From positions 3,669,001 to 3,733,000 of the forward strand of contig NZ_CP108569.1 of assembly GCF_036010505.1 (NCBI RefSeq): a stretch of 64,000 bases of DNA, read 5' to 3'. Under the pieces are notes generated by a model. It was given only the letters and a program-made list of their open reading frames with translations, was not told the origin of the DNA and ran no database searches. The translations under genes were made by a program, and so were the position numbers. Below are positions 27,364 through 46,772 of the stretch, one piece after another. Position 1 is the first letter of the stretch, and each line of letters begins with the position of its first letter. This DNA is from Streptomyces sp. NBC_01197. GTDB taxonomy: Bacteria; Actinomycetota; Actinomycetes; Streptomycetales; Streptomycetaceae.

Positions 27364-28845
27364 TCAGACCCCCCGCAGCAGCACCGCCGGCTGCTCCACG
27401 CAGTCCGCCACGTACCGGAGGAAGCCGCCGGCCGTCCCGCCGTCGCACACCCTGTGGTCGAAAGTGAGGGACAGCTGCACCACCTGCCGTACAGCGAGCT
27501 CCCCCTCGTGGACCCAGGGCTTGGGCACGATCCTGCCGACACCCAGCATCGCGGCCTCGGGGTGGTTGATGATCGGTGTGGAGCCGTCGACTCCGAACAC
27601 CCCGTAGTTGTTCACCGTGAACGTGCCTCCCGTGAGCTCCGCCGGGGTCAGCGCCCCGCTCCTGGCCGCCTCCGTCAGCCGTATGAGCTCCCCGTTGAGC
27701 GACTCCGTGGTGCGCCCGTCGGCGTCGCGTACCACCGGCACCACCAGCCCGCGCTCGGTCTGCGCGGCGAAGCCCAGGTGGACCGACGGCAGGCGCACGA
27801 TCTCCCGCGCCTCCATGTCCACGGTCGAGTTCAGCTCGGGAAAACGCGCCAGGGCCGCCGTGCAGACACGGGCCAGCAGGGCCAGCACCGAGATCTTCGG
27901 AACCGTCGGACCGGCCGCCGCGTTCATGGCCGCACGCGCGGCCATCAACTCGGTGGCGTCCGCGTCGACCCAGCATGTCGCATCGGGGATCTCGCGACGG
28001 CTGCGCGCGAGCTTCTCGGCGACGGCACCACGCACCCCCCGCAGCGGGACCCGGCTCTCCGCCGCCGCTGTCGCAGTCGCCGTCGCGGTCGCGGTCGCAG
28101 CCACCGGTGCGGTGGCGGCCGCCACCGGTTCCGAGGCCCGGCCGGCATCCACCCGCCCGGTCCGGCCGGCCCCGTCGGCCGCGGGTGTACGTATCGCCTG
28201 CTCCACATCGGAGCGCAGAATCAGTCCGTCGGGTCCGCTGCCCGCCAACTCCCTCAGTTCCACGTCGTGTTCGCGCGCCAGCCGCCGGACCAGCGGAGAG
28301 ATCACCGGAACAGGACCGGCCCGGAGCGCGGACGGCGGGGCCGGATCCGGCCGGGTGCCACCAGTCACCCGTACCCGCCGCCGCCGCGCGGCCACCGCGC
28401 CACCCGTCCCGTACCCCACGAGCACATTCCCCGACGAGTTGTCATCAGCCCCCGAAGCCCCGGCGGAATCACCGGCACCGGCGCCGGCGCCGACAGCACC
28501 CATACCACTGACACCACTGACACCACTGGCATCACTCGCACCACTCTTGCTACGACTGGTGTCCGCCCCCACCTCCGGACCCACTGTCACCGTCAACAGC
28601 GGGGAGCCGACCGGCAGTTCGGCACCCTCCTCGCCGAACCGGGCCGTCACCATGCCCGCGTACGGACAGGGCACCTCCACCAGCGCCTTCGCCGTTTCGA
28701 CCTCGACGACCGGCTGGTCGACCGCGACGACATCGCCGATCTCCACCAGCCACCGCACGATCTCGGCCTCGGTCAGCCCTTCCCCGAGGTCCGGCAGCTT
28801 GAATTCCAGGCAGTTCACATCAGAAGCACCAGAAGCACTGGTCAT
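27364..28845 (-). CDS. bkdC2: Branched-chain 2-oxoacid dehydrogenase E2, operon 2
   Basis: 493 residues. A lipoyl domain carries the modified Lys in VETAKALVEV. A long Ser/Gly/Ala linker contains simple repeats such as GVSGVSGMG. An E3/E1-binding domain follows (ISPLVRRLAREHDVEL), then a second repeat-rich linker (ATATATATATAA) and the acyltransferase domain ending with FDHRVCDGGT. The usual HRxxDG motif is kept as HRVCDG. ATG at 28845 overlaps the bkdB2 stop (TGATG). The sequence is clearly diverged from bkdC1, so the two operons are not a recent duplication. Confidence 0.94.
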   Translation of the reverse strand: MTSASGASDVNCLEFKLPDLGEGLTEAEIVRWLVEIGDVVAVDQPVVEVETAKALVEVPCPYAGMVTARFGEEGAELPVGSPLLTVTVGPEVGADTSRSKSGASDASGVSGVSGMGAVGAGAGAGDSAGASGADDNSSGNVLVGYGTGGAVAARRRRVRVTGGTRPDPAPPSALRAGPVPVISPLVRRLAREHDVELRELAGSGPDGLILRSDVEQAIRTPAADGAGRTGRVDAGRASEPVAAATAPVAATATATATATAAAESRVPLRGVRGAVAEKLARSRREIPDATCWVDADATELMAARAAMNAAAGPTVPKISVLALLARVCTAALARFPELNSTVDMEAREIVRLPSVHLGFAAQTERGLVVPVVRDADGRTTESLNGELIRLTEAARSGALTPAELTGGTFTVNNYGVFGVDGSTPIINHPEAAMLGVGRIVPKPWVHEGELAVRQVVQLSLTFDHRVCDGGTAGGFLRYVADCVEQPAVLLRGV

Positions 28846-29849
28846 CAGCTCTGCGCCTCCCACTGCAATCGGGCGACCGCGTCCAGCACCCGGTCCACAC
28901 CGGGCAGATGGTGCCGCTCCAGCATGGGCGGCGGATACGGGATGTCGAACCCGGCGACCCGCAGCACCGGCGCCTCCAGATGGTGGAAGCAGCGCTCCGT
29001 CACCCGGGCGGCGATCTCCCCGCCGGGGCCGCCGAATCCGGCCGACTCATGGACGACGACCGCCCGGCCAGTGCGCCGCACCGAAGCGCACACCGTCTCG
29101 TCGTCGAACGGCACCAGCGAGCGCAGATCCACCACCTCCAGGTCCCAGCCCTCGTCACGAGCGGCCTCCGCCGCCTCCAGACAGACCGGCACCGAGGGCC
29201 CGTACGTCAGAAGAGTGGCGCTGCTGCCCGCGCGCCGGACCACGGCCCGGCCTATCGGCTCCACTGCGGCAGGCGCGTCCGGCGACCACTCGGCCTTCGA
29301 CCAGTAGAGCCGCTTCGGCTCCAGGAAAATGACCGGGTCGTCGGAGGCGATGGCCTCGCGCAGCAGCCCGTACGCGTCGGGGACCGTGGCCGGCGTGACG
29401 ACATGGAGCCCCGGAGTCGCCATGTAGTACGCCTCCGACGAGTCGCTGTGGTGCTCGACACCGCCGATCCCGCCGCCGTACGGCACCCGCACCACGATCG
29501 GCATCGGCAGCGCGCCCCGGGTGCGGTTGCGCATCCGCGACACATGGCTGACGAGCTGCTCGAACGCCGGATAGGCGAAGGCGTCGAACTGCATCTCCAC
29601 CACGGGCCGCAGCCCGTACATCGCCATACCGACCGCCGCCCCGAGAATGCCTGCCTCGGCGAGCGGCGTGTCCGTACAGCGGTCCTCGCCGAACTCCCTC
29701 GCGAGGCCGTCGGTGACCCGGAACACCCCGCCGAGCGTCCCGACGTCCTCCCCCATGACGTGCACGGTGGGGTCCTCGGCCATCGCGTCGCGCATCGCCC
29801 TCTGCAGTGCCTGCGCCATGGTGGCCGGCTTCACCGCGACTGTGGTCAC
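28845..29849 (-). CDS. bkdB2: Branched-chain 2-oxoacid dehydrogenase E1 beta subunit, operon 2
   Basis: 334 residues. Motifs parallel those of bkdB1: GEDVGTLGGVFRVTDGLA, DTPLAEAGILG, VPYGGGIGGVEHHSDS and PYPPPMLERHHLPG. The GTG start at 29849 overlaps the bkdA2 stop by 4 bp (GTGA), showing translational coupling. It partners BkdA2 in the ThDP-dependent decarboxylase. Confidence 0.95.
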   Translation of the reverse strand: MTTVAVKPATMAQALQRAMRDAMAEDPTVHVMGEDVGTLGGVFRVTDGLAREFGEDRCTDTPLAEAGILGAAVGMAMYGLRPVVEMQFDAFAYPAFEQLVSHVSRMRNRTRGALPMPIVVRVPYGGGIGGVEHHSDSSEAYYMATPGLHVVTPATVPDAYGLLREAIASDDPVIFLEPKRLYWSKAEWSPDAPAAVEPIGRAVVRRAGSSATLLTYGPSVPVCLEAAEAARDEGWDLEVVDLRSLVPFDDETVCASVRRTGRAVVVHESAGFGGPGGEIAARVTERCFHHLEAPVLRVAGFDIPYPPPMLERHHLPGVDRVLDAVARLQWEAQS

Positions 29850-30964
29850 CGCCCGGCCTCCGCTTCCAGCTCGGCGCGCAGCTGCTCCGACTGTTCGCGC
29901 AGCTGCGGCGTCGGGGCGTCATAGATCTGCGCGAAGAGGTCCATGGGGTCGAGCAGCGGCTCGGCGTTCATCCGTCCGCGGAGATCCGCTGCCATCGACT
30001 CGGCGGCCTCGGTGGCCGCACCCCTGCGCTCCTCGTCGAGCAGCCCGCGCCCGGTCAGCTCGCGCTCCAGGAGCCGGACCGGATCGTGTGCCCGCCAGGC
30101 CTCCACTTCGGCGTCCGCGCGGTAGCGGGTGGCGTCGTCGGCGTTCGTATGCGCCTCCATCCGGTAGGTCACCGCTTCGATCAGCGTCGGACCACCGCCG
30201 GTCCTGGCCCGCCGGACCGCTTCGGAGAGCACCTGGTGCATGGCCGCCGCGTCGTTCCCGTCCACGAGCCGGCCCGGCATTCCGTATCCGACCGCCTTGT
30301 GGGCGAGGGAGGGGGCCGCGGTCTGCTTGGCGAGGGGTACGGAGATCGCGAAACCGTTGTTCTGGACGAGGAAGACGACGGGGGCGCGCCACACGGCGGC
30401 GAAGTTCAGTGCCTCGTGGAAGTCGCCCTCGCTGGTCCCTCCGTCACCGACCATCGCCAGCGCGACCACGTCGTCCCCGGCCAGCCGGGCGGCGTGTGCC
30501 AGGCCGACCGCGTGCGGAAGCTGGGTGGCGAGCGGTGTGGACAGCGGGGCGATACGGCGCTCACGCGGGTCGTACCCGGTGTGCCAGTCGCCGCGCAGCA
30601 GCGTCAGAGCCTCCACCGGGTCCAGTCCGCGCGCCACGGCCGCGAGGGTGTCCCGGTAGCTGGGGAAGAGCCAGTCCCGGTCCTCCAGGACCAGCGCCGC
30701 GGCCACCTCGGATGCCTCCTGACCGGTGGACGACGGGTAGACAGCGAGCCTGCCCTGCTTGGTGAGGGCCGTCGCCTGCGTGTTGAACCGCCGGCCGTGC
30801 ACCAGGGCGTCGTACAGCCGGAGCAGCAGCTCCCTGTCGAGCCCGGCGGCGGCTTCCGTACCGAGCACCCGGTACGGCTCCGGGTCCGGGAGCAGCGGCG
30901 CGGGGTCGGTACGGATCTTCCATGCCGGGTAGGCAGTAGCACCGGGCAGCTCTTGGACCGTCAT
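29846..30964 (-). CDS. bkdA2: Branched-chain 2-oxoacid dehydrogenase E1 alpha subunit, operon 2
   Basis: 372 residues. The ThDP-binding stretch runs from GDGGTSEGDFHEALNFA to FLVQNNGFAISVP, and YRMEAHTNADDATRY is the substrate-loop region. ATG at 30964 was chosen because AGGAGGTG ends 6 nt upstream; a GTG nine bases earlier overlaps that RBS. It is first in the operon bkdA2-B2-C2. The promoter contains a PaaR-type palindrome (31022-31035) and a DnaA-box-like pair (31070-31091). It is divergent from an Lrp/AsnC gene, the regulator type known to control bkd operons in other bacteria. Confidence 0.95.
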   Translation of the reverse strand: MTVQELPGATAYPAWKIRTDPAPLLPDPEPYRVLGTEAAAGLDRELLLRLYDALVHGRRFNTQATALTKQGRLAVYPSSTGQEASEVAAALVLEDRDWLFPSYRDTLAAVARGLDPVEALTLLRGDWHTGYDPRERRIAPLSTPLATQLPHAVGLAHAARLAGDDVVALAMVGDGGTSEGDFHEALNFAAVWRAPVVFLVQNNGFAISVPLAKQTAAPSLAHKAVGYGMPGRLVDGNDAAAMHQVLSEAVRRARTGGGPTLIEAVTYRMEAHTNADDATRYRADAEVEAWRAHDPVRLLERELTGRGLLDEERRGAATEAAESMAADLRGRMNAEPLLDPMDLFAQIYDAPTPQLREQSEQLRAELEAEAGR

Positions 30965-31021: not shown

Positions 31022-31035
31022 ACCGATTGTTCGGT
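31022..31035. promoter_or_regulatory. PaaR-type palindrome upstream of bkdA2 / lrp-like gene
   Basis: ACCGATTGTTCGGT keeps both ACCGA/TCGGT arms of the sites at 33921 and 38773, with one change in the central CG. It is 58 bp upstream of the bkdA2 start and about 100 bp upstream of the Lrp-like gene. I recall the corynebacterial PaaR motif as ACCGNNCGNNCGGT; this site fits except for one central base. Confidence 0.6.
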
Positions 31036-31069
31036 CGAAAGCGCATTTTGGCTACTGACCCCTTCAGCC

Positions 31070-31091
31070 TGTGGACAAACGGTTCTCCACA
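31070..31091. promoter_or_regulatory. Inverted pair of DnaA-box-like nonamers
   Basis: TGTGGACAA at 31070-31078 is the complement of TTGTCCACA, the preferred Streptomyces DnaA box. TTCTCCACA at 31083-31091 faces it after 4 bp. The pair lies in the bkdA2/lrp-like promoter region. Confidence 0.5.
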
Positions 31092-31136
31092 GCCTGGGAT
31101 AAGAGCAAGTCGTCCATGGTAGAGAGGCGGGGGCAG

Positions 31137-31637
31137 GTGGCAGCTGAACGAATGGCCGACGAGGGCGGGCCTCCTCCCGCGCGCTCGCTGGATGCCATCG
31201 ACCGCGACATCCTGCGGATCCTGCAGCAGGACGGCCGCGCGTCGATACGGTCCGTCTCCGACCGCGTCCATGTGTCGCGCGCCAATGCGTACGCCCGCAT
31301 CAACCGGCTGATCGAGGACGGCGTCATCCGCGGGTTCAGCGCCCGGGTCGACCACGAGCGCGCAGGCCAGGGGTCGTCCGCCTACATCACGCTCAAGATC
31401 GTCCAGAACTCCTGGCGCACGGTCCGCAAGCAGCTCACCGAACTGCCGGGCACCGCTCATATCGCGCTGGTCAGCGGCGATTTCGATGTGCTTCTGCTGG
31501 TGCACAGCGCCGACAACAGGGCGCTGCGTGAGCTCGTGCTGACGAAGATCCAGGCGATCCCGGAAGTGCTCTCCACCCGGACTCTGCTGGTCTTCGAGGA
31601 GACGGACCTGGATCCGGCCAAGCCTTCGGACGGATGA
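31137..31637 (+). CDS. Lrp/AsnC-family regulator (BkdR-like)
   Basis: 166 residues from GTG 31137 (an ATG at 31152 is an alternative; neither has a perfect RBS). An N-terminal HTH (LDAIDRDILRILQQDGRASI, then VHVSRANAYARINRLIEDGVI) precedes an effector-binding RAM/AsnC_ligand domain (SSAYITLKI to TLLVF). It is divergent from bkdA2-B2-C2. Lrp-type BkdR proteins adjacent to bkd operons act as amino-acid-responsive regulators in pseudomonads and have been reported in Streptomyces, so control of operon 2 is the leading hypothesis. Confidence 0.9.
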   Translation: MAAERMADEGGPPPARSLDAIDRDILRILQQDGRASIRSVSDRVHVSRANAYARINRLIEDGVIRGFSARVDHERAGQGSSAYITLKIVQNSWRTVRKQLTELPGTAHIALVSGDFDVLLLVHSADNRALRELVLTKIQAIPEVLSTRTLLVFEETDLDPAKPSDG

Positions 31638-31733
31638 GAACCGGGCCGGAAGCCGGGGCCCGACACGGCCGTCCCGCCCCCGTCCCGTCGCGTCACGCCC
31701 CCTCCGCGCCCCGGCACGCTCCGGCGCGCCCTG

Positions 31734-32333
31734 TCAGTGGGAGGGAGCCGTGCGCAGCCCTTCGAACGCCAGCTGCACGACGGTCTCCGCCAGCTGGTCC
31801 GCGTCGGGACCCGCGCCTTGCGCCGGGCGGACCCACTCGACCAGCGAGTTGATCATCCCGAAGAGCAGCCGGGTCGCCAGCCGGATGTCCACGTCGGAGC
31901 GGAGATCGCCCTCGGACACCGCCGCCTTCAGCAGATCGGCCACCCGCTGGTCGAACTCCCGGCGCCGCTCCATCGCCCAGCGCTCGGTCTTCGTATTGCC
32001 GCGCACCCGCAACAGGAGTGTCACATAGGGGAGTTCCGCCATCAGCACGTCGACCGTACGGCGCGTGACGTACTCGACCTGCTGGATCGCGCGCCCCCGC
32101 GCCGCCCCCGGCTCGTCGAGTACGCCGAAGAGCCCGTCTATGGCGCGGCTGACCGCTCGCCGCAACAACTCCTCCTTGCCCGCGACATGGTGGTAGATCG
32201 AGGACTTGGAGATGCCGGCGGCCCTGGAGAGGTGCTCCATGGACGTGCCGTCGTAGCCGCGCTCGTTGAAGATCTGCACGGCGACCGTCAGCAGGGTCTC
32301 CGGTGTGTACGTGTCCCGCTTGGGGGTGCTCAT
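31734..32333 (-). CDS. paaR: TetR-family regulator, probable PaaR
   Basis: 199 residues. The N-terminal TetR HTH runs YTPETLLTVAVQIFNERGYD through ISKSSIYHHVAGKEELL. A C-terminal ligand domain follows (LRVRGNTKTERWAMERRREF), like actinobacterial phenylacetate regulators. ATG at 32333 overlaps the upstream dehydrogenase stop (TGATG), so it is in one operon with it. The location in a phenylacetate cluster and the three shared palindromes nearby support a PaaR role, probably relieved by phenylacetyl-CoA. Symbol assigned by context. Confidence 0.82.
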   Translation of the reverse strand: MSTPKRDTYTPETLLTVAVQIFNERGYDGTSMEHLSRAAGISKSSIYHHVAGKEELLRRAVSRAIDGLFGVLDEPGAARGRAIQQVEYVTRRTVDVLMAELPYVTLLLRVRGNTKTERWAMERRREFDQRVADLLKAAVSEGDLRSDVDIRLATRLLFGMINSLVEWVRPAQGAGPDADQLAETVVQLAFEGLRTAPSH

Positions 32334-33865
32334 CAGACCGTTCCGCCCTTCTCCGGATGGACGTACGACTGCCGGTACAGCGCCAGCGACGGCGCATAGC
32401 GGCCGCTGGGCACGCGCGCGTGGAGCTCGTCGAGCAGTTCGTGCGCCCAGGCACGGCCGAGCTTGCGGCCCCATTCGACCGGCCCCAGCGGGTAGTTCAC
32501 GCCGAGCCGCATCGCCGTATCGATGTCCTGTGCGGATGCGACGCCCCTGGCCAGGGCGTCCGCCGCGAGGTCCACCATCATCGCGACCGTACGGGCGACG
32601 ATCATGCCGGGGACGTCCCCGATGACGCTGACCTTCTTACCGAGGCACTGGAAGAGGCCGATCGACTGGCGCAGCGTCTCCCAGCCGGTGACCTCGGACG
32701 CCGACAGCGCGATACGGGTGGCGGACCGGTAGTCGAGCGCCAGGTCGAAGTAGACGACGTCCCGGAACTCTGCCGAGGTCTGCCCGTCGGCGAGCACCAG
32801 CTGGCCGCCGCTGGGCAGCACGATCCTGCACCCCGCGTCCTCCTCGTCCTCGCGCACCGCGATCCCCGCCTCACGGGCCATCGCGACCAGTTCGGCCGCG
32901 GGCCCGAGATCGCCCTCCACCGTGATTCCGGACGGGGCCTCGGTGGCCGGGGCCGTGTGGGGCTCGGGCCGGCCTGCGCCCTCTCCGTACGCGTACCAGC
33001 CACGGCCGCTCTTCCTGCCCAGCCGCCCGGACTCGACGAGCCGCTGCTGCGCCAGCGAAGGACGGAATTTGGGGTCCTGGAAGAACGACTGCCAGACCGA
33101 GCGGGTGACCGCTTCGTTCACGTCCTCGCCGATCAGGTCGGTCAGCTCGAAGGGGCCCATCCGGAAGCCGCCCGACTCCCTGAGCACCGCGTCGATAGTG
33201 GCCGGGTCTGCGCCCCGCTCCTCGTGCACCGCGAAGGCCTCGGCGTAGAAGGGGCGGGCGATGCGGTTGACGATGAAGCCAGGGGTGTCGGTGCAGCGGA
33301 CCGGGGTCTTGCCCCAGGCCGTCGCCGTCGCCGACGCGCGCGCGGCGCTCGATTCGTCGGTGGCGAAGCCGCTGACGATCTCGACGAGAGGGAGCAGCGG
33401 CGCCGGGTTGAAGAAGTGCATCCCGAAGAAACGGTCGGGGTGCCTCAGCGCGCCCGCGATGGCGGTCACGGAGAGGGACGAGGTATTGGTCGCGAGCAGG
33501 CAGTCCTCGGTGACGATCTCCTCAAGAGTGGTGAAGAGTTCCTGTTTGACCGGGAGTTGTTCGAGGATCGCCTCGATCACGAGCGCGGCGTCGGCGAGCT
33601 CGGCCGGATCCGCGGCGGGCAGCAAGCGGTCCCGCGCGGCATCCCGCTGCGGCCCGTCCATGCGCCCCTTCTCGACCAGCCGGTCCAGCCGGGCGGTGAT
33701 GGCTTCGGCGGCCTTCTCCGCGCGGCCCGGCAGCGCGTCGTAGAGGCGCACCGGGTGCCCGGCGACCAGGGCGACCTGGGCTATGCCCTGGCCCATGGTG
33801 CCGGTGCCGACGACTGCGACGGTGCGGCTCGGCGCCAGGGCGGGAAGGTGTGCGGTGGCGGTCAT
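32333..33865 (-). CDS. paaH: 3-hydroxyacyl-CoA dehydrogenase (PaaH type)
   Basis: 510 residues. The Rossmann NAD motif VAVVGTGTMGQGIAQVAL is at about 16-33. The catalytic region FGMHFFNPAPLLPLVE and the GFIVNRI segment are clear. A second 3HCDH C-terminal domain (about 400-490, NYPLGPVEWGRKLG) makes this the long, double-domain form typical of PaaH/PaaC enzymes. These oxidise 3-hydroxyadipyl-CoA in the phenylacetate pathway. ATG at 33865. It is divergent from paaN across a 122-bp region that holds a PaaR-type palindrome. Confidence 0.92.
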   Translation of the reverse strand: MTATAHLPALAPSRTVAVVGTGTMGQGIAQVALVAGHPVRLYDALPGRAEKAAEAITARLDRLVEKGRMDGPQRDAARDRLLPAADPAELADAALVIEAILEQLPVKQELFTTLEEIVTEDCLLATNTSSLSVTAIAGALRHPDRFFGMHFFNPAPLLPLVEIVSGFATDESSAARASATATAWGKTPVRCTDTPGFIVNRIARPFYAEAFAVHEERGADPATIDAVLRESGGFRMGPFELTDLIGEDVNEAVTRSVWQSFFQDPKFRPSLAQQRLVESGRLGRKSGRGWYAYGEGAGRPEPHTAPATEAPSGITVEGDLGPAAELVAMAREAGIAVREDEEDAGCRIVLPSGGQLVLADGQTSAEFRDVVYFDLALDYRSATRIALSASEVTGWETLRQSIGLFQCLGKKVSVIGDVPGMIVARTVAMMVDLAADALARGVASAQDIDTAMRLGVNYPLGPVEWGRKLGRAWAHELLDELHARVPSGRYAPSLALYRQSYVHPEKGGTV

Positions 33866-33887
33866 GGGGCGATCTTCCCGTACTGAG

Positions 33888-33896
33888 TTATCCACA
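33888..33896 (+). promoter_or_regulatory. DnaA-box-like nonamer in the paaH/paaN promoter
   Basis: TTATCCACA, an exact match to the general DnaA-box consensus TTATNCACA, 25 bp from the PaaR-type palindrome. Confidence 0.45.
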
Positions 33897-33920
33897 GTCT
33901 GCGCGGACCCCCTTGTCCCG

Positions 33921-33934
33921 ACCGATCGTTCGGT
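33921..33934. promoter_or_regulatory. PaaR-type palindrome in the paaH/paaN divergent promoter
   Basis: ACCGATCGTTCGGT, followed by TACT, fits the ACCGNNCGNNCGGT pattern recalled for corynebacterial PaaR. A plausible plus-strand promoter, TTGTCC (33913-33918) and TACTCT (33935-33940), would place it exactly in the 16-bp spacer, a classic repressor position. Confidence 0.75.
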
Positions 33935-33987
33935 TACTCTAACTCTGTCCACCTGTCCTGCGCAGCTCGAAGAGGAGTTGTCCCGCG

Positions 33988-35661
33988 ATGCAGCTGACCG
34001 AGCTGTCCCAGACCCATCGGCCCACGCTCGACCAGGCCCTCGAAGCAATCCTTACGCGTGCGTACTGGACGCCCCACCCCGAGCACCCCAAGGCATACAG
34101 CGGTGACGGCAAAGCGGCTTTCGACGCCCTGCTGGGCGGGCGCATCGATCTGGGCCAGCCAGGCACCGACGACTGGACAGGCGGCGAAGTATCGCCGTAC
34201 GGAGTCGAGTTGGGCATCACCTATCCGCACCCCGACCTGGACGTCCTGCTGCCCGCGATGAGTGCCGGCACGGCGGCGTGGCGCGCGGCCGGCCCCGAGG
34301 CCAGGGCCGTGGTCTGCCTGGAGATCCTGGCGCGGATCAGCGCCCGTACACCGGAATTCGCTCACGCGGTCATGCACACCAGTGGCCAGGCGTTCATGAT
34401 GGCCTTCCAGGCGGGCGGGCCGCACGCCCAGGACCGCGGCCTGGAGGCCGTGGCATACGCCTATGCCGAGCAGGTCAGGACCCCGTCGTCGGCAGACTGG
34501 TCCAAGCCGCAGGGCAAGCGCGACCCACTGGAGCTGCGGAAGTCCTTCACGGCGGTGGGCCGCGGCATCTCCTTGCTGATCGGCTGCAACACCTTCCCCA
34601 CCTGGAACGGCTATCCGGGCCTGTTCGCCTCCCTCGCCACCGGAAATCCGGTCCTGGTGAAGCCGCACCCACGCGCGGTGCTGCCGCTAGCCCTCACCGT
34701 CCAGGTGGCCCGCGAAGTCCTCTCCGAGACAGGGTTCGACGCCAATCTCGTCGCGCTGGCCGCCGAACGGCCCGGCGAGGGGATCGCCAAGGCCCTCGCT
34801 GTCCGCCCGGAGATCAGGATCATCGACTACACCGGTTCGACCGCCTTCGGCGACTGGCTGGAGGCCAACGCGCGCCAGGCGCAGGTCTACACGGAGAAGG
34901 CCGGGGTCAACACGGTCGTCGTCGACTCCACGGACGACTACAAGGGCATGCTCTCCAACCTGGCCTTCTCGCTCTCCCTGTACAGCGGCCAGATGTGCAC
35001 CACCCCACAGAACCTGCTGATCCCGGCCGACGGCATCACCACGGACGCGGGCCACAAGTCGTACGACGAGGTGGTCGGCGACCTCGCAGCGGCAGTGGGA
35101 GGGCTCCTCGGCGACGACGCCCGGGCGAACGCGTTGCTGGGCGCGCTGGTCAACCCTGATGTACGGGACCGCCTCGAAGCGGCCGCGGATCTCGGTGAAG
35201 TGGCCCTCGCGTCACGGGAGATCGCCCACCCCGACTTCCCGGAAGCCGTGGTCCGTACGCCCGCGATCGTCAAGCTGGACGGCGCGCGGAAGCACTGGGA
35301 CACAGCGGAGGCCGACGCGGCCTACCTCTCCGAGTGCTTCGGACCTGTCTCGTTCGCGGTGGCCGTCGAATCGACCAGGTCCGCACTCGACCTGCTCCGC
35401 CGCACAGTCCGCGACAAGGGAGCCATGACGGTGGGCGCGTACACCACATCAACCGAGGTGGAGCGGGCCGTGGAGGAGGTCTGCCTGGAGGAGTGCGCCC
35501 AGCTCTCGCTGAACCTGACGGGCGGCGTCTACGTCAACCAGACCGCGGCCTTCTCGGACTTCCACGGCTCCGGCGGTAATCCGGCGGCCAACGCGGCGCT
35601 GTGTGACGGGGCGTTCGTGGCCAACAGGTTCCGGATGGTGGAGGTCCGCCGCCAGGCGTGA
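33988..35661 (+). CDS. paaN: Phenylacetic acid degradation protein PaaN (aldehyde dehydrogenase)
   Basis: 557 residues, matching the PaaN family in length and in its N-terminus (TLDQALEAILTRAYWTPHPEHPKAYS). This is a divergent aldehyde-dehydrogenase fold without the C-terminal hydratase of PaaZ. The likely catalytic cysteine is in SGQMCTTPQNLL, and the cofactor region includes TAFGDWLEANA. In actinobacteria it is thought to oxidise the ring-opened semialdehyde. ATG at 33988 has GAGGAG about 10 nt upstream. It is divergent from paaH and followed by a strong hairpin. Confidence 0.92.
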   Translation: MQLTELSQTHRPTLDQALEAILTRAYWTPHPEHPKAYSGDGKAAFDALLGGRIDLGQPGTDDWTGGEVSPYGVELGITYPHPDLDVLLPAMSAGTAAWRAAGPEARAVVCLEILARISARTPEFAHAVMHTSGQAFMMAFQAGGPHAQDRGLEAVAYAYAEQVRTPSSADWSKPQGKRDPLELRKSFTAVGRGISLLIGCNTFPTWNGYPGLFASLATGNPVLVKPHPRAVLPLALTVQVAREVLSETGFDANLVALAAERPGEGIAKALAVRPEIRIIDYTGSTAFGDWLEANARQAQVYTEKAGVNTVVVDSTDDYKGMLSNLAFSLSLYSGQMCTTPQNLLIPADGITTDAGHKSYDEVVGDLAAAVGGLLGDDARANALLGALVNPDVRDRLEAAADLGEVALASREIAHPDFPEAVVRTPAIVKLDGARKHWDTAEADAAYLSECFGPVSFAVAVESTRSALDLLRRTVRDKGAMTVGAYTTSTEVERAVEEVCLEECAQLSLNLTGGVYVNQTAAFSDFHGSGGNPAANAALCDGAFVANRFRMVEVRRQA

Positions 35662-35687
35662 TGCACCGGGGCAGCACCCGCCCCTCG

Positions 35688-35717
35688 GCCCGGGGTCTCC
35701 GACGCGAGACCCCGGGC
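35688..35717. terminator. Hairpin terminator between convergent paaN and SpoU-family gene
   Basis: A perfect 12-bp stem (GCCCGGGGTCTC at 35688-35699 with GAGACCCCGGGC at 35706-35717) has a 6-nt loop. Confidence 0.85.
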
Positions 35718-35843
35718 GGGCGGGATGGCGGTACCCCGGGCCGCCGCAACAAGTCCAGGCGCCCTGTCCGGACCCACGGCATGTCCGGGCCGTACGCGGT
35801 AGGCAGTATGCGGCCCGGTCCCGTCCCAGTACCAGGTGGGCGC

Positions 35844-36599
35844 TCAGTCGATCTTTGCGTACCGCTGTACCCAGGCGTGCATGGCGATCGCGGCGGCCGC
35901 ACCCGCGTTGATGGACCGCGTCGAGCCGAACTGCGCGATCGAGCAAACCCGCTGCGCGTGCTTCCGTGCCTCTTCAGTGAGCCCGGGGCCCTCCTGCCCG
36001 AACAGCAGCACACAACGTCGCGGCAGCTCGGTCCGCTCCAGTGGCACCGCGCCCGGCAGATTGTCGATCCCGATGATCGGCAGGCCCTCGGCCGCAGCCC
36101 ACGCGGTGAGCGACTCCGTGTCCGGGTGGTGACGCACATGTTGGTAGCGGTCGGTCACCATGGCTCCACGCCGGTTCCAGCGCCGCCGCCCCACGATGTG
36201 GATTTCCTTGGCGAGAAAGGCGTTGGCGGTACGGACGACGGATCCGATGTTGAAGTCGTGGCCCCAGTTCTCGACGGCGACATGGAAGTCGTGGCGCCTG
36301 GTGTCCAGGTCCGCGACGATCGCCTCCCGCGTCCAGTACCGGTACGCGTCGACCACGTTGCGGCGGTCCCCTGCGACGAGCAGTTCCTGGTCGTACTGCG
36401 CGCCCTCCGGCCACGGCAGGGGGTGCGGCCCGACACCGATTTCGGGCGCGAAGACATCGTCGTACTGAGCCGGCTCGCCGGAATGCTCCGACTGCGCGGG
36501 CGCATCCGGCGTTCCCGGCTCTGCAGGTACTTCAGGCGATTCGCGCTCCACGCGCGCTTCGAATGCTTCAGGTGCTTCGGGGGAGGGCTCGCTGGTCAC
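35844..36599 (-). CDS. SpoU/TrmH-family RNA 2'-O-methyltransferase
   Basis: 251 residues. An acidic, Pro/Glu-rich N-terminal tail of about 60 residues precedes the SPOUT domain. The three SpoU motifs are readable: NWGHDFNIGSVVRTANAF, VLLFGQEGPGL and SIAQFGSTRSINAGAAAAI. The enzyme methylates a ribose in tRNA or rRNA with S-adenosylmethionine through a knotted fold; the target base is unknown. The GTG start at 36599 overlaps the stop of the HTTM gene by 4 bp, so it is last in a three-gene operon with two membrane proteins. Confidence 0.9.
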   Translation of the reverse strand: MTSEPSPEAPEAFEARVERESPEVPAEPGTPDAPAQSEHSGEPAQYDDVFAPEIGVGPHPLPWPEGAQYDQELLVAGDRRNVVDAYRYWTREAIVADLDTRRHDFHVAVENWGHDFNIGSVVRTANAFLAKEIHIVGRRRWNRRGAMVTDRYQHVRHHPDTESLTAWAAAEGLPIIGIDNLPGAVPLERTELPRRCVLLFGQEGPGLTEEARKHAQRVCSIAQFGSTRSINAGAAAAIAMHAWVQRYAKID

Positions 36600-37825
36600 C
36601 CCACGAGCGTACGGGGCTGCTCGCCCTGCTCCCCCTCGGCCGGACGCAGCCTGCCCACCGGCCCCTTCCGCGCGGCTGCTCGTGCGCGGGCGGTCAGCAT
36701 TGCTGCGCGGCCGCCCAGCCAGAGCAGAAAACCGGTCGGCAGGAAGACCGCGTCCGCCGCGATCATCGCCATCGAGAAGAACGGCAGACCCAGCAGTACC
36801 GCGATACCGAGGTGCTCAAGGATCATCGCGACCAGCAGCACGTTCTTGACGCGCCGGTTGAAGAGGGTGAAGGGGAAGGCCACCTGAACGATGACCGTGC
36901 CGTACGTCAGCAGCATCACCAGCACGCCGCTGGTGGCGAGCAGCGAGGACAGTCCGGGCCAGGGCGAGAAGTAGTGCAGGTTGAGCGGGTAGTAGAGGGC
37001 CGTGCCGTCCTCCCAGCGGGAGCCCTGGATCTTGTACCAGCCGGCCGTCGAGTAGACCAGACAGACCTCGGCCATGATCACGACGAGGCCGGCGTTGTGC
37101 GCGAGGTTGGCGACCACGTCGAGGAAAGTGCGGGGCTCGCCCGGCACGATCCGGCACACCACCCACCACAATCCCTGGACCAGCCACATCACCCAGAAGA
37201 TCAGTTCCCAGCCGCCACTCATCTTCCCGAGCAGCGTGACGAGTGCGAGTGCGATACCGAGCGCGGACCAGAGCAGGGGGCCGACCCGGTCCCGGTACGG
37301 CTCGGGGGCGGAAACGCCACTGGTTCCGGCAGCCCGCGCGGCACGGGCCGCGCGGCGCGCATCCAGCGACCAGACCTGGGAACAGCGTGTCACCAGCAGA
37401 TAGATCGCCATGATGTGGACGACGTTGTCGCCGCCGTCGCCCACGAAGACGGACCGGTTCTGCAGTGACAGCACGCCGATCATGAACAGCGCGGAGGCGA
37501 AGCGTGTGTGCCAGCCGAGCAGCAGCAGCACGCTGGACAGCACGGCAACGGCGTAGACCATCTCGAACCACGCCGTGGAGTCCGACCACATCAGCACGGT
37601 GAAGGCATGATTGCCGGCGGTGAGCTGCTTCGCCATGCCCCAGTCCCACGGGGCGTGCGGTCCGTACAGCTCACGGCGGTGCGGCAGCTCCCGCAGGAGG
37701 AAGAACAGCCAGGTGGCGGAGAACCCGATCCTGATCACGGCGCTCTGAAAGCGGCCGAGCGGGGCCTCGGTGATGCGCTGGATTCCACGCGCGATCTTGC
37801 TGCTGAGGTCGCTGGCTGAGCTCAC
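36596..37825 (-). CDS. HTTM-domain (vitamin K-dependent carboxylase-like) membrane protein
   Basis: 409 residues with about eight hydrophobic helices. The N-terminal motif RIGFSATWLFFLLRELPHRR and a later YKIQGSRWEDGTALYY are the landmarks of HTTM proteins, distant relatives of vitamin K-dependent gamma-carboxylase. No bacterial function is established. The GTG start at 37825 overlaps the stop of the DUF5819 gene (GTGA), and its own stop overlaps the SpoU-family start. Tight coupling with DUF5819 implies a two-component membrane unit. Confidence 0.85.
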   Translation of the reverse strand: MSSASDLSSKIARGIQRITEAPLGRFQSAVIRIGFSATWLFFLLRELPHRRELYGPHAPWDWGMAKQLTAGNHAFTVLMWSDSTAWFEMVYAVAVLSSVLLLLGWHTRFASALFMIGVLSLQNRSVFVGDGGDNVVHIMAIYLLVTRCSQVWSLDARRAARAARAAGTSGVSAPEPYRDRVGPLLWSALGIALALVTLLGKMSGGWELIFWVMWLVQGLWWVVCRIVPGEPRTFLDVVANLAHNAGLVVIMAEVCLVYSTAGWYKIQGSRWEDGTALYYPLNLHYFSPWPGLSSLLATSGVLVMLLTYGTVIVQVAFPFTLFNRRVKNVLLVAMILEHLGIAVLLGLPFFSMAMIAADAVFLPTGFLLWLGGRAAMLTARARAAARKGPVGRLRPAEGEQGEQPRTLVG

Positions 37826-38676
37826 CGGTCGTCCTCCGTACGGTCCGCAGGGACAACCGCCCACCAGGGCAGGACCCGGTAGGAGACCCGTGTGTCGATC
37901 TTCTCCTGACTCCACGGGGGAGCCTTCACCGAAGACGTCGCCGAACGGACCTGTATCCGCTCGACCGAGGAACCGCTCTGCTGCCGGTCGCTCATCCGCA
38001 TGACGACGAGGCGGCGGATGTACCGCTCCGACAGCTCGCCCCGCATCCCGATCGGCTGGTTGTCGTTGTTGTGCGAGCCGGTGAAGAAGTCCCAGGCACG
38101 ACGGAGCTCGTTCTGGTCGACGTGGCTGGGGAGAATGTTGTGGCGGAGGGACGCCCCGTCCTCGGCCGACAGATCGGTCCAAGCGGTGGTGGTGATTTCG
38201 CCCCCCTTCGTCCTTATCTCAGCACGGGCCTGAACGTCGATGTTCTGCTGGAGTGGATTGGGTGCGAAGAGCTTCCAGTTCTGTTCGAACTCTGGATAGA
38301 TCCAGTCATTCACCGCCTTGCCGTACTGCTCGCTCACGGTGTTCGACGGCGCGACATGCAGAAAGACCATCGCGAGGTGGACGGCGGTCAGAACCCCGAT
38401 CAGCCCGAGCGCGATGGCTGCGGCCACCTGGTACGGAAAGGAGAGCGCGAGGATCCCTCGGGGCGCCCCGGCAGCTCCACGGGACTCGGGAGCCGCACGG
38501 GGTCCGGGAGTATCCAGAGGGTCAGCCGCGTCCAGGGAGTCAGGTGCGCCCAGAGGGCCAGGTGCGTCCAGAGGCTCGCGAGTGTCCAGTGGCTCGGCAG
38601 TGTCCGGAGGCTCTCGTGGCGGAGGTGGTGCTCCTGACCCGCTCGCTCCGGGCTCCCCACTGTCATACGAATCCAT
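37822..38676 (-). CDS. DUF5819 family membrane-anchored protein
   Basis: 284 residues. The first 75 residues are Pro/Ala/Asp-rich with about six degenerate hexapeptide repeats (PLDTRE, PLDAPG, PLGAPD, SLDAAD). One membrane helix (YQVAAAIALGLIGVLTAVHLA) follows. The exported domain contains FEQNWKLFAPNPLQQN, a signature also seen around HTTM partners, then TDLSAEDG and RYIRRLVVMRMSD. The fold is unknown. It is first in the DUF5819-HTTM-SpoU operon and divergent from paaA; the 126-bp spacer holds a PaaR-type site, so the operon may share phenylacetate control. Confidence 0.82.
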   Translation of the reverse strand: MDSYDSGEPGASGSGAPPPPREPPDTAEPLDTREPLDAPGPLGAPDSLDAADPLDTPGPRAAPESRGAAGAPRGILALSFPYQVAAAIALGLIGVLTAVHLAMVFLHVAPSNTVSEQYGKAVNDWIYPEFEQNWKLFAPNPLQQNIDVQARAEIRTKGGEITTTAWTDLSAEDGASLRHNILPSHVDQNELRRAWDFFTGSHNNDNQPIGMRGELSERYIRRLVVMRMSDRQQSGSSVERIQVRSATSSVKAPPWSQEKIDTRVSYRVLPWWAVVPADRTEDDR

Positions 38677-38718
38677 CCCGCCCCGATCCCCTTTGGTGCC
38701 CGCCGGTCTTCAGGCCAG

Positions 38719-38727
38719 TTATCCACA
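38719..38727 (+). promoter_or_regulatory. DnaA-box-like nonamer in the DUF5819/paaA promoter
   Basis: TTATCCACA lies just upstream of a perfect -35-type TTGACA (38731-38736) that could serve paaA, though no good -10 is visible at normal spacing. The PaaR-type palindrome lies 46 bp downstream. Confidence 0.45.
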
Positions 38728-38772
38728 GGGTTGACACCCTAAGGGCCCTCGCCCCACCATTGAAGTCCATGA

Positions 38773-38786
38773 ACCGAACGATCGGT
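38773..38786. promoter_or_regulatory. PaaR-type palindrome upstream of paaA
   Basis: ACCGAACGATCGGT fits ACCGNNCGNNCGGT perfectly and ends 16 bp before the paaA ATG, overlapping the probable transcription start or leader. Confidence 0.75.
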
Positions 38787-38802: not shown

Positions 38803-39855
38803 ATGGCGACAGTGGCGTACGGGACGGACGGGGCATCACAGCCCTCGGCAGCCTCGGGCCTTTCAGCTGCGCCCGGGGCCGGGCCCGAGGAGACGAGGCA
38901 GGCCGCCTTCGACGCCGCTGTGGCCGCAGACGAGCGGATCGAGCCACGGGACTGGATGCCCGACGGGTACCGCGCCTCCCTCGTCCGCCAGATGGCTCAG
39001 CACGCTCACTCCGAAATCATCGGAATGCAGCCCGAGGCAAACTGGATCGCCCGGGCCCCCTCTCTGCGCCGTAAAGCGATCCTGATGGCGAAGGTCCAGG
39101 ACGAGGCAGGACACGGCCTGTATCTGTACAGCGCGGCCGAGACCCTCGGCACGGGCCGCGAAGAGCTGCTCGACAAGCTCCACTCCGGGCGCCAGAAATA
39201 CTCGTCGATCTTCAACTACCCGACGCTGACCTGGGCTGATGTCGGCGCAGTCGGCTGGCTGGTGGACGGCGCGGCGATCACCAATCAGGTGCCGCTCTGC
39301 CGCTGCTCCTACGGTCCGTACGCCCGGGCCATGGTCCGGGTCTGCAAGGAGGAGTCCTTCCACCAGCGCCAGGGCTTCGAGCTGCTGCTCACCCTCAGCC
39401 GCGGCACACCGGAGCAGCACGCGATGGCCCAGGACGCCGTGGACCGCTGGTGGTGGCCGTCGTTGATGATGTTCGGCCCGCCGGACGACGAGTCCGCCCA
39501 CTCCGCGCAGTCCATGGCCTGGAAGATCAAGCGGCACTCGAACGACGAGCTGCGCCAGCGCTTCGTGGACATCTGTGTCCCCCAGGCCAAGGCCTTGGGA
39601 CTCACTCTTCCCGACCCCGATATCCGGTGGAACGAGGAGCGGGGCCAGCACGACTTCGGCAGCATCGACTGGACCGAGTTCAAGGAAATCCTCAAGGGCA
39701 ACGGCCCCTGCAACGAACAGCGGATCACCCAGCGGCGCCGGGCTCACGAAGACGGAGCCTGGGTCCGGGAGGCGGCGACCGCGTACGCCGTGAAGACGGC
39801 AGCCGGCGCGGCCAAGAGCGCCGACGCAGCAGAGCAAGGGAAGGCGCGCGCATGA
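38803..39855 (+). CDS. paaA: 1,2-phenylacetyl-CoA epoxidase, subunit PaaA
   Basis: 350 residues. This is the catalytic di-iron subunit of the bacterial multicomponent monooxygenase that epoxidises phenylacetyl-CoA. Iron-ligand regions are [19 protein letters not shown] (about 100-118) and [15 protein letters not shown] (about 180-194), each with the Glu and His of ferritin-like carboxylate-bridged sites. Residues 1-30 are a low-complexity N-terminal extension. ATG at 38803. It starts the operon paaABCDE, whose genes overlap or abut throughout. Confidence 0.95.
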
Positions 39856-40163
39856 CCGCCACATCCGAGAACAGCCCGGCCGCCGGGGACTGGCCGCTGT
39901 GGGAAGTGTTCGTGCGCTCACGGCGCGGGCTGGCCCACACGCACTGCGGCAGCCTGCACGCTCCGGACGCGGAGATGGCCCTGCACCACGCCCGCGACGT
40001 CTACACCCGCCGGAACGAGGGCGTCTCGATCTGGGTGGTCCCCTCCACCGCTGTAACCGCGTCTTCGCCCGACGAGAAGGACTCGTTCTTCGAACCGGCC
40101 GGTGACAAGCCCTATCGGCACCCCACGTTCTACGAGATCCCGGAAGGGGTGCAGCACCTGTGA
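39852..40163 (+). CDS. paaB: 1,2-phenylacetyl-CoA epoxidase, subunit PaaB
   Basis: 103 residues. PaaB pattern: [40 protein letters not shown] and the C-terminal [18 protein letters not shown]. PaaB is a small non-catalytic subunit needed for complex assembly. ATG at 39852 overlaps the paaA stop by 4 bp. Confidence 0.95.
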
Positions 40164-40861
40164 CAGCGGCCCTCGCCCTCGGCGACGACGCACTGGTCCT
40201 CTCCCACCGGCTGGGCGAGTGGGCGGGTCACGCGCCGGTACTGGAAGAGGAGGTGGCCCTCGCCAATATCGCTCTCGACCTGCTGGGGCAGGCGCGGGTG
40301 CTGCTCTCCCTGGTGGGGGACGAGGACGAGCTGGCGTATCTCCGCGAGGAGCGCGCCTTCCGCAACCTCCAGCTCGTCGAGCAGGAGAACGGCGACTTCG
40401 CGCACACCATCGCCCGCCAGCTCTTCTTCTCCACCTACCAGCAGCTGCTGTACGACCGGCTTGCCGCCGGGGGCGGGCCGCTCGCGCCGCTCGCCGCCAA
40501 GGCGGTCAAGGAGGTCGCCTACCACCAGGACCACGCCGAGCAGTGGACGCTGCGCCTCGGCGACGGGACAGCCGAGAGCCATGAGCGGATGCAGCGGGGG
40601 GTGGACGCGCTGTGGCGCTTCACCGGCGAGATGTTCCAGCCGGTCGAAGGGGTGGACGTCGACTGGGCCGGTCTGGCGGGCAGTTGGTCCCGCTCCGTGA
40701 CGGAACTGCTGGCGCGGGCCACGCTGTCCGTGCCGACCGGGGCGCAGACCGGGGCCTGGTCGGCGGGGGCGGGCAGGCAGGGCCTGCACACCGAACCATT
40801 CGGGCGGATGCTCGCCGAGATGCAGCATCTGCACCGCAGCCACCCGGGGGCGACATGGTGA
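40160..40861 (+). CDS. paaC: 1,2-phenylacetyl-CoA epoxidase, subunit PaaC
   Basis: 233 residues, the structural ferritin-like partner of PaaA. LGQARVLLSLVGDEDELAYL and KAVKEVAYHQDHAEQW are family hallmarks; PaaC keeps the fold but lacks the full iron centre. The GTG start at 40160 overlaps the paaB stop (GTGA). Confidence 0.94.
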   Translation: MTAALALGDDALVLSHRLGEWAGHAPVLEEEVALANIALDLLGQARVLLSLVGDEDELAYLREERAFRNLQLVEQENGDFAHTIARQLFFSTYQQLLYDRLAAGGGPLAPLAAKAVKEVAYHQDHAEQWTLRLGDGTAESHERMQRGVDALWRFTGEMFQPVEGVDVDWAGLAGSWSRSVTELLARATLSVPTGAQTGAWSAGAGRQGLHTEPFGRMLAEMQHLHRSHPGATW

Positions 40862-41340
40862 CCACCACACCTCTCGAAGCGGAACTGCGCCGGCTCGCCG
40901 GAGGCGTCCCCGACCCCGAACTGCCGGTCGTGACACTTGAGGAGCTCGGAGTGCTGCGCGGCGTGGAGATCCTTGGCCCCGGCCGGGTCGCGGTCGAGCT
41001 CACCCCGACCTACACGGGCTGCCCTGCCATCGAGTCGATGTCCTCCGACATCGAACGGGTCCTCCACGAACACGGGATTCCTGACGTCTCGGTACGCACA
41101 GTGCTGTCACCGGCCTGGTCGACGGACGACATCAGCGCGGAGGGCCGACGCAAACTGGCCGAGTTCGGGATAGCTCCCCCGCGCCCGACCGGCCCTGTCG
41201 CCCTTGCACTGGCCATCCGCTGCCCCCACTGCGGTTCGACCGACACCGAGCTGCTGAGCCGGTTCTCCTCCACGGCCTGCAAGGCGCTGCGGCGCTGCGC
41301 CTCGTGCCACGAGCCCTTCGACCACTTCAAGGAGTTGTAG
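40855..41340 (+). CDS. paaD: PaaD, MIP18-type maturation factor of the epoxidase
   Basis: 161 residues. An N-terminal MIP18/DUF59 domain (GGVPDPELPVVTLEELGVLR, then TYTGCPAIESM) precedes a C-terminal zinc-ribbon-like segment with CPHC and CASC pairs (about 126-155). PaaD is thought to help assemble the metal or Fe-S centres of the epoxidase system. It starts at ATG 40855 or GTG 40858, overlapping the paaC end. Confidence 0.92.
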   Translation: MVTTTPLEAELRRLAGGVPDPELPVVTLEELGVLRGVEILGPGRVAVELTPTYTGCPAIESMSSDIERVLHEHGIPDVSVRTVLSPAWSTDDISAEGRRKLAEFGIAPPRPTGPVALALAIRCPHCGSTDTELLSRFSSTACKALRRCASCHEPFDHFKEL

Positions 41341-42411
41341 ATGTTCCATCCGCTCCGGGTCAGCGCGGTCGAACAGCTCACGGACGACGCCGTGGCCATC
41401 ACCTTCGCCATCCCCCCTGAGCTGCGTGCGGCGTTCCGCCACACACCTGGCCAGCATGTGGCCCTGCGCCGCGTCGTGGGTGGTGCGGAAATCCGCCGTA
41501 CGTACTCGATCTGTACCCCGGCAGCCGCAGCCACCGAACAGCCGGTCGTGCGGGTGGGGGTGCGGCTGGTGGAGGGTGGCGAGTTCTCCACGTACGCGCT
41601 CAAGGAGCTGAGCGTCGGGGACACCGTCGAAGTCATGGAGCCGATGGGCCGCTTCTCCTTCGAGCCGCGCCCCGGCAGGTTCGCCGCGATCGTGGGAGGC
41701 AGCGGCATCACCCCGGTGCTCTCCATCGCCGCGACGCTGCTGGCCCGCGAACCGGGTGCACGGTTCTGTCTGATACGCAGCGACCGCACCGCGGCCTCCA
41801 CGATGTTCCTCGACGAGGTCGCCGATCTGAAGGACCGCTGGCCGGAGCGCTTCCAGCTGGTGACCGCGCTCTCCCGGGAGGAGCAGCAGTCCGGTCTGCC
41901 ATCGGGGCGGCTCGACGAGGAACGGCTGACGGGACTGCTGCCGGAGCTTCTGCCGGTCGCGGACGTGGACGGCTGGTTCCTGTGCGGCCCGTTCGGTCTG
42001 GTGCAGGGCGCGGAACGTGCACTGCACGGGCTCGGGGTGGCCAGGGCCCGTATCCATCAGGAAATCTTCCATGTCGATGACGGCACCTCCACCGCCACGG
42101 CGCCCCTCGGGCCGGCATCGGCGGCCGCTCCGGCACACAGCACGCTGACCGCGACCCTCGACGGGCGCTCGGGCACCTGGCCGGTGCGAGAAGGGGATTC
42201 GCTTCTCGAAACGGTCCTGCGGAGCCGTTCCGACGCACCGTATGCCTGCAAGGGTGGGGTGTGCGGGACATGCAGGGCGTTCCTGGTCTCGGGTGAGGTG
42301 CGGATGGACCGCAACTACGCGCTGGAGCCGGAGGAGACCGAAGCGGGTTATGTGCTGGCCTGCCAGTCGCACCCGCTGACGCCGGAAGTGGAGCTGGACT
42401 TCGACCGCTGA
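41341..42411 (+). CDS. paaE: 1,2-phenylacetyl-CoA epoxidase reductase PaaE
   Basis: 356 residues. It has an FAD-binding domain (RRTYSICTP), an NAD(P)H-binding domain (GGSGITPVLSIAATLL) and a C-terminal plant-type 2Fe-2S ferredoxin domain. The cysteines are CKGGVCGTC with a distant fourth in ACQSHPL. It passes electrons from NADPH to PaaA. The ATG follows directly after the paaD TAG, so it is last of the five-gene operon. Ring-cleavage and beta-oxidation genes paaG, paaJ and paaK are not in the window. Confidence 0.95.
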   Translation: MFHPLRVSAVEQLTDDAVAITFAIPPELRAAFRHTPGQHVALRRVVGGAEIRRTYSICTPAAAATEQPVVRVGVRLVEGGEFSTYALKELSVGDTVEVMEPMGRFSFEPRPGRFAAIVGGSGITPVLSIAATLLAREPGARFCLIRSDRTAASTMFLDEVADLKDRWPERFQLVTALSREEQQSGLPSGRLDEERLTGLLPELLPVADVDGWFLCGPFGLVQGAERALHGLGVARARIHQEIFHVDDGTSTATAPLGPASAAAPAHSTLTATLDGRSGTWPVREGDSLLETVLRSRSDAPYACKGGVCGTCRAFLVSGEVRMDRNYALEPEETEAGYVLACQSHPLTPEVELDFDR

Positions 42412-46745: not shown

Positions 46746-46772
46746 TGTGGACAACTGCCCGGTTGTGGACAA
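46746..46772. promoter_or_regulatory. Two direct DnaA-box nonamers upstream of the DUF2252 gene
   Basis: TGTGGACAA at 46746-46754 and again at 46764-46772, 18 bp apart and in the same orientation. Both are exact complements of TTGTCCACA, the preferred Streptomyces DnaA box, in the 194-bp region between two minus-strand genes. Confidence 0.6.

Follow-up and report, generated by a model that had tools for sequence, protein, structure and literature searches.

A PaaR-type operator ahead of the second branched-chain-type dehydrogenase operon of Streptomyces suggests a link to the phenylacetate regulon

Gene content of the locus

Here we describe a block of genes in Streptomyces sp. NBC_01197 in which an operon encoding a 2-oxo acid dehydrogenase (bkdA2B2C2) lies beside genes for phenylacetate breakdown (paa) and a gene for the TetR-family regulator PaaR. 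All coordinates refer to the window, i.e. the whole 64-kb stretch of DNA analysed (contig NZ_CP108569.1, positions 3,669,001 to 3,733,000). Streptomyces possess two operons annotated as branched-chain dehydrogenases, and we know of no clear reason why they need both. Matches to the first (bkdA1B1C1) are found at 9999-6501. The second comprises adjacent genes on the minus strand for E1 alpha (bkdA2, SCO3831 type, 29846..30964), E1 beta (bkdB2, 28845..29849), and the E2 acyltransferase (bkdC2, 27364..28863). It stands beside a plus-strand gene (31137..31637) for an Lrp/AsnC-type regulator, BkdR, of the SCO3832 type by position and family; the operon flanking that gene is itself of the SCO3831-3829 type.

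Beyond the Lrp gene are PaaR (31734..32333, minus strand) and a paaH-like 3-hydroxyacyl-CoA dehydrogenase gene (32333..33865, minus strand), the product of which scores under the cut-off of TIGR02279 (600.2 vs 669.4 bits) and over that of PRK08268 (634.6 vs 508). These are followed on the plus strand by paaN (33988..35661; TIGR02288, 935.8 bits, cut-off 578.75) and, further on, by paaA (38803..39855), paaB (39852-40163), paaC (40160-40861), paaD (40858-41340), and paaE (41341-42411). PaaA to PaaD exceed their NCBIfam cut-offs, while PaaE falls just below (413.8 vs 420.8 bits).

The TetR protein is full length, with TetR_N and TetR_C domains, and among proteins of solved structure it is closest to SCO3833 from S. 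coelicolor (PDB 2IAI, E 8e-86). Outside the order Streptomycetales, 29 of 55 PaaR matches were surveyed over a stretch of ~10 kb (shorter at contig ends), and matches to paaK, paaN, paaH, or paaABCDE lay within this distance in 26 of the 29 loci; the other three (L233, L238, and L254) showed no paa match within it. Because of this neighbourhood and its nearest solved relative, the gene is PaaR, in agreement with the initial annotation of this DNA, which had placed a PaaR-like TetR gene in the middle of the block. Another PaaR-like protein, sharing 57-58% identity with the query, is encoded in four genomes (G081, G009, G031, and G065); in G081 (L174), it adjoins a relocated paa cluster that includes its own paaK as well as the palindrome ACCGAACATTCGGT.

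Palindromes in the window and the genome

Palindromes of the form ACCGA-N4-TCGGT occur at 31022..31035 (ACCGATTGTTCGGT), 33921..33934 (ACCGATCGTTCGGT), and 38773..38786 (ACCGAACGATCGGT), and these are the only matches to ACCGANNNNTCGGT in the window. They lie between bkdA2 (minus) and the Lrp-like gene (plus), between paaH (minus) and paaN (plus), and between a DUF5819 gene (minus) and paaA (plus), so that the earlier assertion of one palindrome in each of exactly three divergent promoter regions is accurate in both position and number. Chance was ruled out as their origin by 100 dinucleotide shuffles of the window, which contained a mean of 0.13 matches and in no case reached three. Operon 1 had no match in the window-wide scan, and hence it is indeed operon 2, and not operon 1, that bears a site.

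Extending the scan to the whole genome, as the initial annotation had suggested, yielded 27 places with ACCGA-N4-TCGGT, compared with 10 for a reversed control pattern. A W-Y-R-W centre is present in only four of the 27, three of them at paa promoters (before paaK, between paaN and paaH-paaR, and before paaA) and one between bkdA2 and lrp. The fourth site is ACCGATCATTCGGT at 7202239, outside the window, 67 bp ahead of a match to paaK (phenylacetate-CoA ligase; TIGR02155, above cut-off). Of the remaining 23 places, 19 lie inside open reading frames (ORFs) and four outside, according to a crude GC-frame ORF caller whose tally does not include the paaA site and scores the paaN site inside an overextended paaH.

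Conservation of the operators

Conservation was followed in 80 named Streptomyces loci, fetched by their PaaR protein, and in a set of 121 Streptomyces genomes searched for PaaR at E 1e-20 or better. The site at 31022 is exact in all 79 named loci containing the bkdA2 region (L075 ends before it and is not counted), the paaN site is present in 80/80, and the paaA site in 76/76 loci reaching it. In the genome set, PaaR is encoded in 119/121 genomes, and these 119 are also the ones that contain ACCGATTGTTCGGT, each of them exactly one copy. The rows of the alignments discussed below were chosen by the exact site, a bias that these genome-wide counts do not share. Loss of the bkdA2 site in relatives had been named beforehand as grounds for abandoning the proposed link; what was found instead is exact conservation in every locus containing the region and every PaaR-bearing genome. 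By eye, ACCGATTGTTCGGT and PaaR share a contig and lie within ~3 kb of each other, except in G084 (~16 kb) and in G077 and G108 (different contigs). The paaN site ACCGATCGTTCGGT occurs in 118/121 genomes; in G113, the additional miss, ACCGAATGTTCGGT precedes a relocated paaN.

Target of the bkdA2 operator

Based on these patterns, a PaaR operator very probably acts on bkdA2. Three other accounts of the site have to be weighed against this. One holds that the operator serves the divergent Lrp gene, with bkdA2 affected only through BkdR, and it would fit with the spacing: most loci have ~102 nt between the site and the lrp match, or more if that match begins further on, against a variable distance to bkdA2. 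The order PaaR-lrp-site-bkd, with paaN nearby, is also kept in G270, from another genus of the same family, and in G121, from a different family. In family f3, however, the two genes can be told apart. G124 has the order paaN-site-PaaR-ACCGAACCTTCGGT-bkdA2B2, and the exact palindrome ACCGA-N4-TCGGT precedes bkdA2 in G124, G130, and G134b, with one arm mismatch in G128; PaaR is nearby in G124, G134b, and G128, and was not seen in the stretch read for G130. The E1 alpha proteins of these four copies form one supported clade (100/99); in the trees, the partly out-of-frame E1 beta row of S. niveus was kept. At 1e-40, lrp is without a match in the whole genomes of G124, G128, and G130, whereas no ACCGA-N4-TCGGT was found in the stretch read for the lrp-linked f3 copies away from PaaR (G122, G123, and G134a). 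The operator thus follows bkdA2 and not lrp, and on this comparison lrp was rejected as its sole target. Given further that G035 retains lrp and not the arms of the site, control through BkdR is very unlikely.

It is likewise highly improbable that another TetR-type or an unrelated protein uses the palindrome at 31022 and that its likeness to PaaR sites is convergent. Short TetR palindromes do resemble one another, and in the named loci the usual centre at bkdA2 (TTGT) is unlike those at the paa promoters (TCGT and ACGA). Individual centres are, however, also usual among the paa promoters themselves, that of paaK being TCAT (TCGT in L281 and L282), and the co-occurrence of PaaR and the site in the same 119 genomes speaks against convergence. 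The least probable account attributes the conservation to promoter elements or a conserved block only, with no role for PaaR. Its basis is that the stretch from about -13 to +100 around the bkdA2 site is conserved as a whole in the 79 loci, such that conservation within them is weak evidence by itself, and that the rows of the block and promoter alignments were chosen by the exact site, so that the site figures in them hold by construction. At greater distance, the site and its surroundings part: CCTACCGATTGTTCGGTCG is intact in G121, although its flanks can no longer be aligned by eye. G035 has neither PaaR nor a bkdA2 next to lrp, and its corresponding place reads ACAGATTGTTCGAA (aligned by eye); here the centre ATTGTTCG is retained, while the palindrome is broken by three changes that all fall in the arms. 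This region faces an ORF 60% identical to that at 27252-26476 of the window, downstream of bkdC2. Since bkdA2 too is missing from this position in G035 and G114, the lack of PaaR need not be the sole cause of the lost site, which tempers the case for PaaR acting here.

Promoter elements

The comparisons with G121 and G035 are consistent with a minus-strand bkdA2 promoter, TAGCCA-N17-AACAAT, whose -10 element would lie within the operator. The putative -10 (AACAAT, 31026..31031) is found in 110/110 distinct rows, by construction, and the putative -35 (TAGCCA, 31049..31054, 17 bp from the -10) in 108/110, where it reads TGGCTA on the plus strand. A -10 element inside the operator would explain the one 'odd' central base of the bkdA2 site. 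At paaN, a putative -35 (TTGTCC, 33913-33918; 77/80 rows) and -10 (TACTCT, 33935-33940; 74/80 rows) are separated by a spacer that the operator takes up completely, and at paaA the operator is just downstream of a putative promoter, TTGACA-N18-CACCAT (38731-38736 and 38755-38760), a pattern of which kind occurs in 67/76 rows. If these promoter assignments are right, the positions of all three operators would suit repression.

Coupling of bkd genes with phenylacetate genes

Absence of the pathway is accompanied by absence of the operon in G114, where PaaA, PaaK, PaaR, lrp, and the bkdA2 type are all without a match and two bkdA1-type copies are retained. The latter are divergent operon-1-type copies (bkdA1B1C1) lying side by side (L261; G114:C141:130900-150800). 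A PaaK match (1e-50) is absent from 10 of the 121 Streptomyces genomes, nine of which keep PaaA. One of these ten is G035, in which bkdA2B2C2, an enoyl-CoA hydratase (ECH) gene, and paaABCDE follow one another on one strand. That these bkd genes are a relocated native operon was considered and rejected; in the trees they cluster with G134a, one of the f3 copies, and therefore look horizontally acquired.

A search with the G035 E1 alpha revealed a related second type of bkdA2B2C2 in 10 of 391 Streptomycetales genomes. In eight of these operons (L272-L279), a gene for an aminotransferase and a paaN-type gene flank the operon across an Lrp gene, the paaN-type product of L278 scoring under the 578.75 cut-off (552 bits). 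On the other side, L276 and L278 read bkdABC-paaN-thiolase-ECH-paaH-ECH-paaA-paaB on one strand as far as the stretch extends, and L279 reads bkdABC-paaN-thiolase-ECH-paaH-paaABCDE, so that paaA follows the operon in three of the eight. Thiolase, ECH, and paaH genes are present in L272 and L274, paaN in L275, and only the paaN-type gene in L277, while in L273 the far side carries paaN, thiolase, ECH, and paaH together with the palindrome ACCGAACATTCGGT. The best PDB match of the aminotransferase is 4r2n, a 'putative phenylalanine aminotransferase' (3.9e-107). The Lrp gene of these eight clusters is of the BkdR type, its product being 48-57% identical to that of the window. Because a BkdR-type Lrp gene adjoins second-type bkd genes and the aminotransferase, regulators of this type may respond to aromatic amino acids, as far as gene arrangement suggests. 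Coupling to both aminotransferase and paa genes thus characterizes 8/10 second-type clusters; for the window operon, the coupling is to paa genes only, an aminotransferase not having been looked for there.

Proposed regulation and function

Taken together, the sites predict that PaaR occupies four operators of the genome and would repress the phenylacetate regulon (paaK, paaN/paaH-paaR, and paaA-E) as well as bkdA2B2C2, in the latter case from an operator that covers the promoter's putative -10. The inducer releasing PaaR would be phenylacetyl-CoA if the analogy with other PaaR proteins holds. The BkdA2B2C2 complex would carry out oxidative decarboxylation of phenylpyruvate, derived from phenylalanine, to phenylacetyl-CoA and so bypass the ligase PaaK, giving a route from phenylalanine via phenylpyruvate and phenylacetyl-CoA to ring epoxidation and beta-oxidation-like steps without PaaK. 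We lean towards this reading as a whole, i.e. repression of bkdA2B2C2 by PaaR combined with synthesis of phenylacetyl-CoA from phenylpyruvate, and an arylpyruvate is, with similarly moderate confidence, the favoured main substrate of the complex. Whether the reading can be generalized, such that the second 'branched-chain' dehydrogenase of Streptomycetales would be an arylpyruvate dehydrogenase providing PaaK-independent entry of phenylalanine under PaaR and an Lrp protein (BkdR) that would sense aromatic and not just branched-chain amino acids, we regard as evenly balanced. The initial annotation had guessed at recruitment for aryl or branched oxo acids such as phenylpyruvate; gene context, namely second-type bkdABC with a putative phenylalanine aminotransferase and paa genes, favours that guess, while the E1 sequence is silent on the substrate.

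A different explanation accepts that PaaR controls bkdA2B2C2 but takes the enzyme to be an ordinary branched-chain dehydrogenase (BCDH) tuned by phenylacetyl-CoA, for reasons of CoA balance, shared acyl-CoA effectors, or starter-unit supply. We consider it unlikely, if far from negligible: the operator evidence is identical for both, and several observations that weigh against an arylpyruvate substrate also fit it. The E1 active site is formed by two subunits. The E1 proteins of both operons match the same pyruvate dehydrogenase (PDH) and BCDH structures with almost identical ranking; as both match the two kinds of structure alike, sequence gives no substrate. The E1 alpha of bkdA2 just passes the PDH model TIGR03181 (414.2 vs 411.35), with mixed PDH and BCDH matches in PDB, and although blocks of E1 alpha and beta differ consistently between the operon types (LAVYPSS-like vs LGLWASL-like), no substrate inference is drawn from them. 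The adjacent regulator SCO3832 (bkdR) is described in the passages concerned as a regulator of the branched-chain dehydrogenase (PMC12323332, PMC8176718). G008 keeps PaaR and the bkdA2 site, yet paaABCDE and paaK match only in fragments, and G101 is alike for paaA and paaK, with PaaR and the site kept; these fragments may reflect true decay or assembly errors. At the G008 locus itself (L260; G008:C1:547000-566900), paaA, paaC, paaE, and paaK are fragmentary in a decay-like manner, and PaaR, paaN, paaH, and the bkdA2 site are elsewhere (L259).

Further points against the main reading concern the regulon and the second-type clusters. The relocated paaA of G006 has no W-Y-R-W site nearby, with only ACCGAGAGCTCGGT ~0.9 kb upstream, and among the 29 loci outside the order a bkdA2-type operon lies within ~10 kb of PaaR in just one, in addition to one E2 fragment at an edge. 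Within the stretches read, five of the eight second-type clusters (L272-L275 and L277) have no paaA match, two of the ten second-type operons (G108 and G134) have no paa neighbour, and the G035 cluster has no aminotransferase. NCBIfam names the aminotransferase family histidinol-phosphate transaminase, over cut-off. Moreover, the second-type E1 alpha proteins are only 56-66% identical to that of the window, so that the function of the window operon is carried over by kinship. Two observations argue for the arylpyruvate function over an ordinary BCDH: in the second-type clusters, genes of this E1/E2 type are linked to paa genes and to one for a putative phenylalanine aminotransferase, and in G114 the bkdA2 type and the phenylacetate genes are absent together.

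Relation to known systems

A TetR repressor of paa genes has been described as PaaR in Streptomyces pristinaespiralis (SSDG_03033; Zhao et al. 2015), with AACGA-N4-TCGGT given as its putative site in a review table, one letter off the window pattern; the descriptions in the passages concerned mention no bkd target (PMC10933834, PMC7089894). PaaR of Burkholderia cenocepacia, from a different phylum, is a TetR repressor with an inverted repeat, ACCGACCGGTCGGT, between putative -10 and -35 elements; this operator fits ACCGA-N4-TCGGT, and the passage on it describes only phenylacetate genes as targets while mentioning a genome scan (PMC2770484). Release from DNA by phenylacetyl-CoA is described for other PaaR proteins in a review (PMC9493321). 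In S. coelicolor, the same operon type with its Lrp-type regulator (SCO3829-SCO3832) is presented as a branched-chain dehydrogenase under BkdR, with predicted MtrA sites and, in those passages, no link to PaaR (PMC12323332, PMC8176718). The reaction proposed here for BkdA2B2C2 resembles that suggested for PglB/PglC of pristinamycin biosynthesis, a PDH-like pair proposed to convert phenylpyruvate to phenylacetyl-CoA for phenylglycine (PMC7089894), but that pair belongs to an antibiotic cluster, and the likeness is one of description and not of sequence. A 2026 pan-proteome synteny paper records bkd genes as neighbours of paaN and an Lrp gene and proposes a connection; its passage on this synteny contains no operator, PaaR, phyletic test, or substrate proposal (PMC13118837). 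The passages found in the open-licence literature searched hold no report of PaaR acting on bkd, and the titles listed from the iModulon literature include nothing on phenylacetate control in Streptomyces.

PaaR as a repressor of paa genes in Streptomyces is therefore already known, while bkd as its target appears, within the literature searched, to be new, bkdA2B2C2 being possibly both a new target and a new entry branch of a known regulon. If operon 2 does belong to phenylacetate metabolism, models of how polyketide starter units and the phenylacetyl-CoA for phenylglycine antibiotics are supplied would need revision, as would the view of BkdR as a branched-chain sensor.

DnaA-box-like nonamers

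The DnaA-box-like nonamer TTRTCCACA is present in each of the promoter regions with a PaaR-type operator in the window, at 31070-31078 (minus), 33888-33896 (plus), and 38719-38727 (plus). In relatives, it occurs as TGTGGACAA in 107/110 bkdA2 rows (TGTGGAC, at one offset, in 108/110), as TTATCCACA in 68/76 paaA rows, and as TTRTCCACA in 69/80 paaN rows. A second regulator or a mid-chromosome position may be the reason. The window contains six such nonamers compared with 0.19 expected; the three others lie at 46746-46772 (minus; two, with starts 18 bp apart) and 58864-58872 (plus).

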